Shown piece by piece: positions 11,336 to 32,734 of a DNA stretch of 32,734 bases. The position numbers and the translations under genes are program-made. Origin of the DNA: Patescibacteria group bacterium (GTDB lineage: Bacteria; Patescibacteriota; Minisyncoccia; Moranbacterales; SCTJ01); NCBI GenBank assembly GCA_004297805.1, contig SCTJ01000019.1, positions 1 to 32,734 of the forward strand, given 5' to 3'. Within the stretch, counting starts at the first letter, position 1. Each line of letters opens with the position of its first letter. Under the pieces are notes generated by a model. That model worked only from the letters and a program-made list of their open reading frames with translations. It did no database searches and was not told the DNA's origin.

Positions 11336-11349
11336 AGGTGTGAATCTTG

Positions 11350-11420
11350 AGGTCCGAGCCGGAATTGAACCGGCGTACGAGGTTTTGCAGACCTCTCCCT
11401 AACCACTCGGGCATCGGACC
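11350..11420 (-). tRNA. tRNA-Cys (anticodon GCA)
   Basis: GGTCCGA acceptor, anticodon loop CTGCAAA, discriminator U typical of Cys. Confidence 0.93.
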
Positions 11421-11435
11421 TTATTGTAAAAACTG

Positions 11436-11578
11436 TGTTTCTGAGTGGTTCCCGGGTTGCCTTTTGCAACCCGCCCCGATATTAAATCGAGACCCACCCA
11501 CCGCATTCTGCGGGGTCCCGCCATAGGCGGTGATCGGCCACCGGACCAGCTTATCAACTGAAGCTACCAAGCTGCATG
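11436..11578 (-). ncRNA. Candidate structured RNA (copy A) upstream of tRNA-Cys/tRNA-Leu
   Basis: Series of GC-rich hairpins on the minus strand (GGTCC[..]GGGACC; CCGCA-GAAT-GCGG; CTCGAT-TTAAT-ATCGGG; GGGTTGC-AAAAG-GCAACCC); shares GTAGCTTCAG, GGCYGATCACC and TGGRTCTC in order with 32391..32472; preceded by promoter TTGCCA-N17-TATCAT. Confidence 0.6.
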
Positions 11579-31777: not shown

Positions 31778-32380
31778 ATGACAAAATATATTTTGAACTC
31801 AGGAGGCGCAAGGAAAGACTCGGAGAAACTACGACTTTTTTTGGATGAAATTGTGCGGGATTTGGGGCAAAGTCCGCGAATATTATTTTGCTTCTTTGCG
31901 CAGAAGCGAGAAGACTGGGAGGGATATTTCGCAGAATATCAGCAAGGTTTCTTGAGGCGGGTAGATAAAAGTTTGCAGCCAACCTTTGAATTGGCTTTCC
32001 CAGAAAAATTTGTCCAGCAGATTCAGAATTGCGACGCGGTCTATCTGGGTGGAGGCGATGATCATTTGTTGCAGTTTTGGCTGAGAAGATATAATCTACC
32101 AGAGGCCTGGAGAGGCAAAGTGGTGGCTGGCACCTCGGCTGGCTCAGATGCGCTGGTGAAGCATTTTTGGACCTGTGATTGGCGACAGTGCCTGGATGGA
32201 TTGGGAATTCTGCCCATCAAGTTTATTCCACACTACAAATCGGATACTTACGGCAAAGATGATCCTCGCGGTCCAATTAATTGGGAGAAAGCTTACCAGG
32301 AGTTATCGGAATATGGAGACAAGTCATTGTCGCTTCATGCTCTGGAAGAAGGCGAGTTCATAGTTATTAACCAGGAGTAG
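31778..32380 (+). CDS. Peptidase S51 (peptidase E-like) / class I glutamine amidotransferase-like
   Basis: YLGGGDDHLLQFWLR, VVAGTSAGSDAL, LGILPIKFIPHY. Confidence 0.87.
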   Translation: MTKYILNSGGARKDSEKLRLFLDEIVRDLGQSPRILFCFFAQKREDWEGYFAEYQQGFLRRVDKSLQPTFELAFPEKFVQQIQNCDAVYLGGGDDHLLQFWLRRYNLPEAWRGKVVAGTSAGSDALVKHFWTCDWRQCLDGLGILPIKFIPHYKSDTYGKDDPRGPINWEKAYQELSEYGDKSLSLHALEEGEFIVINQE

Positions 32381-32390
32381 TTTAACAAAG

Positions 32391-32472
32391 GTCCTTGTAG
32401 CTTCAGCCCCAGGCTGATCACCCGTAAGGGTGACAATGGATCTCAGCACCAGAGCAAAGCCCGGTGCAGGAC
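32391..32472 (+). ncRNA. Candidate structured RNA (copy B) upstream of tRNA-Arg
   Basis: Closing stem GTCCT/AGGAC; CAGCC-CCA-GGCTG; TCACCC-GTAA-GGGTGA; GCACC/GGTGC; shares ordered blocks with the reverse strand of 11436..11578. Confidence 0.6.
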
Positions 32473-32506
32473 AAGTGCCGCAAATCCTAAAATATTAAGG
32501 TTATCT

Positions 32507-32578
32507 CTCCTCATAGCTCAACGGATAGAGCAGTCCCGTCCTAAGGGAAAGATGGGGGTTCAATTCCCTCTGAGGAGA
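32507..32578 (+). tRNA. tRNA-Arg (anticodon CCT)
   Basis: CTCCTCA/TGAGGAG acceptor, loop GTCCTAA, TTCAATT T-loop. Confidence 0.9.
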
Positions 32579-32589
32579 CAAATAATAGT

Positions 32590-32734
32590 ATGATCAAAAA
32601 AATACCTCAACAGGTCATTGATGTATTGAACCAACTGGCTAAAGCCGGTTTCGAATCTTATGTTGTGGGCGGGTGCGTGCGCGATTTGATCATGAACCGC
32701 GAACCCAAAGACTGGGATGTGACGACCAAGGCTA
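32590..32734 (+). CDS. cca: CCA tRNA nucleotidyltransferase / poly(A) polymerase family, N-terminal part (truncated by window edge)
   Basis: MIKKIPQQVIDVLNQLAKAGFESYVVGGCVRDLIMNREPKDWDVTTKA. Confidence 0.92.
   Translation, partial: MIKKIPQQVIDVLNQLAKAGFESYVVGGCVRDLIMNREPKDWDVTTKA

Follow-up and report, generated by a model that had tools for sequence, protein, structure and literature searches.

Copies of a predicted tRNA-linked RNA in a Patescibacteria genome are hairpin-filled tRNA 5′ fragments, probably left by homing-type insertion

Two structured segments, copy A and copy B, each lie ahead of a tRNA gene in a 32,734-nt stretch of Patescibacteria DNA (hereafter, the window), and this arrangement raises the question of whether they are copies of one tRNA-linked RNA. 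The original prediction, which took them for members of a single RNA family, was based on short blocks shared between the two. These blocks were indeed found at the positions given for them, and beyond chance: GTAGCTTCAG occurs twice in the window (11558-11567, minus strand, and 32397-32406, plus strand; 0.04 expected), as does GGCYGATCACC (11529-11539, minus strand, and 32412-32422, plus strand; 0.01 expected), with both copies of each lying ahead of a same-strand tRNA. TGGATCTC (32437) and TGGGTCTC were also present. The genes described downstream of copy B, a tRNA-Arg and cca, were recovered as tRNA-Arg(CCT) and a following ORF that starts like a CCA-adding enzyme/poly(A) polymerase (PF01743).

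Judged from its sequence, copy B is a partial tRNA-Arg gene filled with hairpins (Table 1). From 32391 to 32452, it consists of GTCCTTGTAGCT, hairpin 1, hairpin 2, CAATGGAT, CTC, and AGCACCAG; the entire segment (32391-32472) stops 34 nt short of the intact tRNA-Arg(CCT). Hairpins 1 and 2 form a 31-nt double hairpin, inserted at T12^C13 of tRNA-Arg. We identified copy B as a tRNA-Arg 5′ part with a double hairpin because its first 20 nt, hairpins removed, matched tRNA-Arg best: the five tRNA-Arg genes outscored the other 39 tRNAs (44 compared, all from this genome), with 18 of 20 nt matching tRNA-Arg(TCT) and 16 of 20 the neighbouring tRNA-Arg(CCT). Over the first 12 nt, the match to this neighbour was 9 of 12. 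AGCACCAG resembles ..GAACACCAG.. or ..GAGCAC.. of tRNA-Arg genes, a short likeness that is weaker than that of the other parts. The double hairpin is of the TCMSCC..GGSKGA type with one additional loop base, and the hairpin-1 unit recurs at the identical spot (TAGCT^CA) in other genomes. Copy B had a folding z of -3.3; its fold splits the first GATC between hairpins 1 and 2 and leaves the second unpaired, giving no support to the GATC..GATC pairing formerly proposed.

Read in the same way, copy A is a tRNA-Cys 5′ fragment, and the same kind of thing as copy B. It carries a looser form of the TCMSCC..GGSKGA double hairpin, and its best fold (z = -3.5) retains the second hairpin, the first one being paired differently. 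The same layout was observed at the tRNA-Cys locus of a relative (L271 of G071), which reads GGTCCGTTGGCCGA, a 35-nt double hairpin, and GTGGTTA. The resemblance once seen between GCAAAGCCCGG of copy B and GCAAAAGGCAACCCGG of copy A looks accidental, as the latter holds the tRNA-Cys anticodon-loop-like GCGGGTTGCAAAA.

Since A is a tRNA-Cys and B a tRNA-Arg 5′ fragment, each with its own hairpins, they are not homologous copies of one RNA, and the assignment to one family is abandoned. Block 1 (GTAGCTTCAG) differs in origin between the copies, and the agreement in blocks 2 and 3 reflects the tRNA D-arm that both carry beside a hairpin starting with TCACC. In the window, only tRNAs scored above the Rfam gathering score, and at E ≤ 10 the region 32370-32734 gave the tRNA and weak chance matches only. 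A T-box, riboswitch, or ribozyme at copy B was rejected, with no Rfam match even at E ≤ 10.

Table 1. Features of copies A and B and of the intact tRNA genes downstream of them
Feature	Position	Strand	Basis or remark
Copy B, displaced tRNA-Arg nt 1-12 (GTCCTTGTAGCT)	32391-32402	+	Best match is tRNA-Arg, hairpins removed
Copy B hairpin 1, TCAGCC-CCA-GGCTGA	32403-32417	+	Perfect 6-bp stem
Copy B hairpin 2, TCACCC-GTAA-GGGTGA	32418-32433	+	Perfect 6-bp stem
Copy B, tRNA-Arg D-loop resumed (CAATGGAT)	32434-32441	+	Matches tRNA-Arg CAATGGATAGAGC
Copy B, tRNA-Arg D-stem 3′ side and anticodon stem 5′ side (AGCACCAG)	32445-32452	+	
Copy B hairpin 3, GCACC..GGTGC	32446-32467	+	Minimum-energy fold
Copy B, AGGAC, pairing possible with GTCCT at 32391-32395	32468-32472	+	Minimum-energy fold; 5 letters, maybe chance
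Intact tRNA-Arg(CCT)	32507-32579	+	ARAGORN and Rfam
Copy A, displaced tRNA-Cys nt 1-14 (GGTCCGGTGGCCGA)	11534-11547	-	10/12 to first 12 nt of downstream tRNA-Cys
Copy A double hairpin, CCGCC-TAT-GGCGG and CCGC-AGAAT-GCGG	11501-11530	-	Sequence
Copy A, tRNA-Cys anticodon-arm-like GCGGGTTGCAAAA	11462-11474	-	By eye; 10/13 to own tRNA-Cys, 12/13 to that of G071
Intact tRNA-Cys(GCA)	11349-11420	-	ARAGORN and Rfam

As a search motif, GGCYGATCACC alone was discarded, its matches in relatives being mostly coding or otherwise due to chance; the third match in this genome (L003) was likewise coding and unrelated. The addition of TAGCTTCAGCC made the motif specific. With at most one mismatch, TAGCTTCAGCCNNNGGCTGATC was found in 11 of the 131 genomes of the order (reversed-pattern control, 0), and the exact motif in 2 of 380 genomes sampled across the phylum. 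A collection of 85,000 species yielded 36 exact matches to TAGCTTCAGCCNNNGGCTGATC, in Patescibacteria, Omnitrophota, some Deltaproteobacteria, and a few other bacteria; the Deltaproteobacterial ones were set aside as a separate intergenic repeat without tRNAs. A tRNA started within 450 nt on the same strand on the 3′ side of 19 of these 36 matches, on the 5′ side of 3, and on the other strand in 1 case. In 16 of the 19 (Asn, Lys, Arg, Ala, His, and Met), the 12 nt ahead of the hairpins were identical to the start of the downstream tRNA. The seven acceptor letters agreed at 6.4 of 7 with the fragment's own tRNA versus 3.0 of 7 with other tRNAs, a result equalled by 0 of 20,000 shuffles. Fragments with other hairpins were found at 3 of 18 tRNAs in a genome of another class (G286), and fragments at 0 of 19 tRNAs in a distant genome (G179). 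The element is therefore recurrent, tRNA-linked, and structured in other genomes, as had been predicted, but it does not constitute a single RNA family with a common fold.

We surveyed 202 tRNA genes from five genomes of the order for displaced pieces, covering 450 nt on each side, with intact tRNAs excluded, and requiring at least 10 matches to the first 12 or last 12 nt of the tRNA; the 44 tRNAs of this genome were assembled from loci. Copies of a tRNA's own first 12 nt were observed 36 times upstream, 4 times downstream, and 0 times on the opposite strand, with a few fragments counted twice, for neighbouring tRNAs, and copy B (9/12) outside the 36. Copies of the last 12 nt were found 23 times downstream and 4 times upstream (Fisher, 5e-8 and 2e-4 for first-12 and last-12 copies, respectively). 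This genome had upstream first-12 copies at 14 of its 44 tRNAs. The upstream copies begin at tRNA nt 1, with flanks that are barely similar: identity to the tRNA was 0.96-1.0 at nt 1-11 and 0.93 at nt 12, about 0.6 at the two preceding bases, and mostly 0.2-0.45 beyond. The 12 nt were required by the search itself; the fall in identity ahead of nt 1 is independent of this requirement. GC-rich stems of 6 bp or more lay within 70 nt of 23 out of the 37 fragments, versus 5.9% of distance-matched windows before other tRNAs. Nine fragments (Thr, Tyr, Gln, Asp, Arg, Asn, Cys, Val, and Lys) exhibited exact inserts of 30-36 nt, with the tRNA resuming after them: a 35-nt insert after nt 34, then TAAACAGTA, in the Thr fragment; a 35-nt insert after nt 22, then 17 nt of tRNA, in the Asp fragment; and a 30-nt insert after nt 12, then 16 nt of tRNA, in the Asn fragment of G128.

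The double hairpin, in which TCMSCCNNNGGSKGA occurs twice, is a dispersed repeat, present in 53 of 124 genomes with up to 20 copies per genome (reversed-pattern control, 0). Its stems are kept, because the variable pairs were complementary in 197 out of 200 cases (50 distinct elements). Within tRNA pieces, the hairpins were located in the D-stem, the D-loop, and the anticodon loop, and in some pieces in the T-loop. In relatives, double hairpins were also observed within DnaK- and DnaJ-like genes (L147:1501-1530 and L137:1501-1530; named by eye from the protein sequence), where they keep the reading frame and add SAQGGSASGG. Given this dispersal and the presence in DnaK and DnaJ, the double hairpin is a mobile palindrome and no tRNA-specific RNA, though few positions are used within tRNA pieces. 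Another double hairpin (L027:1347-1376) lay shortly 5′ of a gene with a threonyl-tRNA synthetase-like start, as recognised by eye.

Ten GIY-YIG genes were found in this genome, one of which, a 444-aa ORF, is probably UvrC, judging from its length. Six of the nine small ones lie 31-151 nt before a same-strand tRNA, and genes of this kind were also found directly 5′ of tRNAs in G005, G009, G016, and G025; the one ahead of tRNA-Asp at G000:C6:1947-2156 is an example of a tRNA-adjacent GIY-YIG gene. At the Asp, Gln, and Ser-GCT loci, a displaced 5′ piece with a hairpin is followed by a GIY-YIG ORF and then by the intact tRNA. This order was also observed at Gln in G005 and G025, at Asn in G016, and at Asn in contigs of Dojkabacteria, Omnitrophota, Nealsonbacteria, and Yanofskybacteria, where the ORFs were recognised by their start and two proteins were checked with PF01541. 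A mirror case (L299) comprised an intact tRNA-Ile, an ORF, a hairpin, and a tRNA-Ile 3′ half. The spacing suggests that a nuclease gene is absent between fragment and tRNA in about three quarters of the upstream cases; copies A and B have none either, the gap to the tRNA being too short to hold one. At L285 (G004), overlapping pseudo-tRNA-Gln copies lie on either side of an intact tRNA-Gln and a GIY-YIG gene; in these copies, a hairpin of the TCCCGAT..ATCGGGA type takes the place of the anticodon arm, and hairpins like it were seen in the displaced tRNA-Gln of G000 and G071. SegB, a GIY-YIG enzyme from phage, cuts within tRNA genes and is itself co-localised with tRNAs (PMC13096335).

For the fragments observed here, with their orientation rule, their start at nt 1, their hairpins, and their association with nuclease genes, we favour homing-type insertion: copies A and B are probably displaced, non-functional tRNA 5′ fragments, the scars of such an insertion, filled with mobile double hairpins. 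A homing-type element, often still with a small GIY-YIG endonuclease gene, would enter a tRNA gene and bring or regenerate the missing 5′ or 3′ part, resulting in one intact tRNA, and the original part would be expelled, 5′ pieces upstream and 3′ pieces downstream. The nuclease presumably makes the cut, and a small GIY-YIG nuclease probably made the scar. The expelled piece, being free of selection, would acquire double hairpins at the tRNA loops and decay, which we infer to be the cause of their accumulation; the nuclease gene would mostly be lost, leaving short scars such as copies A and B. Homing-type insertion is favoured because 5′ pieces are nearly confined to the upstream side and 3′ pieces to the downstream side, a choice that a randomly decaying tandem copy would not make. 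Several findings speak against it: most upstream fragments, by their spacing, lack an intervening nuclease gene; some 3′ fragments share their downstream flank with the intact tRNA, as in plain tandem duplication; pseudo-tRNA-Gln copies lie on both sides at L285, which a single split would not yield; copy B is slightly closer to tRNA-Arg(TCT) than to its neighbour; and none of the 19 tRNAs of G179 has a fragment. Only tentatively would we go further and propose a class of tiny mobile elements invading tRNA genes in Patescibacteria and Omnitrophota, in which a GIY-YIG enzyme may cut at conserved loops, repair may restore the tRNA, possibly by copying from tRNA given the start at mature nt 1, and the expelled piece may be capped with a hairpin in the same process.

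The shared downstream flanks (Asp, Leu-CAG, and Ser-CGA), together with two tandem units at L118 and the spread of double hairpins over genomes and into protein genes, could also indicate plain partial tandem duplication by replication slippage, the spare piece being neutral ground for hairpins that insert anywhere and the GIY-YIG genes separate visitors. We consider this rather unlikely: random decay predicts equal numbers of 3′ and 5′ pieces upstream (4 versus 36 observed), the upstream flanks are unduplicated, with identity dropping at tRNA nt 1, and the hairpins occupy few exact positions across unrelated tRNAs. As an addition to the homing-type reading, the hairpins might be selected, by blocking pairing of the displaced piece with the tRNA 3′ half or by removing the nuclease site. 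Their excess near fragments over the 6% background (23/37) and their fixed positions in the D-stem, D-loop, anticodon loop, and some T-loops are consistent with selection, which nevertheless seems improbable, as the acceptor strand, which could compete best, stays intact, and folding with and without the insert gave an equal outcome.

tRNA genes are the classic integration sites, with one end regenerated, and the pieces could thus be remnants of attachment sites of a tyrosine recombinase (integrase); however, at attachment sites it is the 3′ part of the tRNA that is duplicated, over kilobases, whereas here mostly 5′ parts within 450 nt are involved, accompanied by hairpins and GIY-YIG genes, and we regard this origin as highly improbable. 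Hardly more credible is a leader RNA with a role in regulating or processing the tRNA, for instance by competition between the displaced 5′ strand and that of the tRNA itself. The stable folds (z of -3.3 and -3.5), the same-strand position just 5′ of the tRNA, and a 5′ strand often identical to that of the tRNA would fit, but nothing is conserved in sequence or fold besides tRNA pieces and variable hairpins, truncation points vary, matching 3′ pieces lie downstream, the majority of tRNAs have no fragment, and Rfam gave no match. A regulatory RNA is unlikely, and nothing pointed to the role in tRNA supply or processing that had been suggested. Energy folding of fragment plus tRNA gave a decoy pairing with and without hairpins, which we take to be an artefact of multiloop terms, the energy model probably favouring extra branches. 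The idea that the hairpins neutralise this decoy was rejected, since the pairing persists either way.

Integrative elements in tRNA genes insert with one gene part restored; unlike them, the present elements mostly restore the 5′ part, and the insert is tiny, with about 30-330 nt between the pieces. Rickettsia palindromic elements are short mobile palindromes found across the genome, also within genes. REP/RAYT repeats are short extragenic palindromes whose REP units come after GTAG, whereas GTAG at the elements described here derives from tRNA sequence (GTAGCT). The double-hairpin elements of fungal and sponge mitochondria (for example, PMC2800124 and PMC4478555) are similarly short, mobile, and genome-wide, also occurring inside genes; ours differ in being bacterial (Patescibacteria and Omnitrophota), with a TCMSCC/GGSKGA stem, a 30-nt unit, and fixed positions in displaced tRNA pieces. 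A small nuclease gene beside tRNAs is likewise typical of free-standing GIY-YIG homing endonucleases (phage T4 Seg family; SegB of T6, PMC13096335), from which our loci differ in lying on bacterial chromosomes, in the displaced, hairpin-bearing tRNA piece across the gene, and in that cutting is putative. The same source reports that SegB cuts tRNA genes at RAWTSGAAC, which, by our own reading, would be the complement of the tRNA T-loop sequence GTTCSAWTY. No such tRNA pieces were described for Patescibacteria in the accessible text of open-licence papers dealing with this group, with palindromic or double-hairpin elements, with homing endonucleases in tRNA genes, or with GIY-YIG together with tRNA genes. 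GIY-YIG homing genes beside tRNAs and double-hairpin repeats were already known, and their combination appears to be new.

Among these tiny uncultured bacteria, about one sixth of the tRNA genes have a scar of this kind beside them. The genomes are very small and contain few tRNA genes, mostly in single copy, yet up to one third of these carry displaced pieces of themselves (14 of 44 here), an indication that essential genes have been invaded repeatedly by elements that mend their own damage. The remnants mimic novel tRNA-linked regulatory RNAs and call for caution in annotation, and the loci supply nuclease-target pairs ready for testing.

Other inserted sequences were also noted at tRNA genes. 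Displaced 3′ pieces at L169, L056, L265, L274, and L278 (after tRNA-Asp, Leu, Ala, and Arg) were preceded by a common insert of about 110 nt, which reads GGGGTCGGGAAAAC..GGGTTTCAAAGAGCGAAGCGAGTGAGAT and for which Rfam searches of five of these loci-sets gave no credible match. At L085 and L127, the tRNA gene seemed, by eye, to be split after the anticodon by a group I intron-like sequence.
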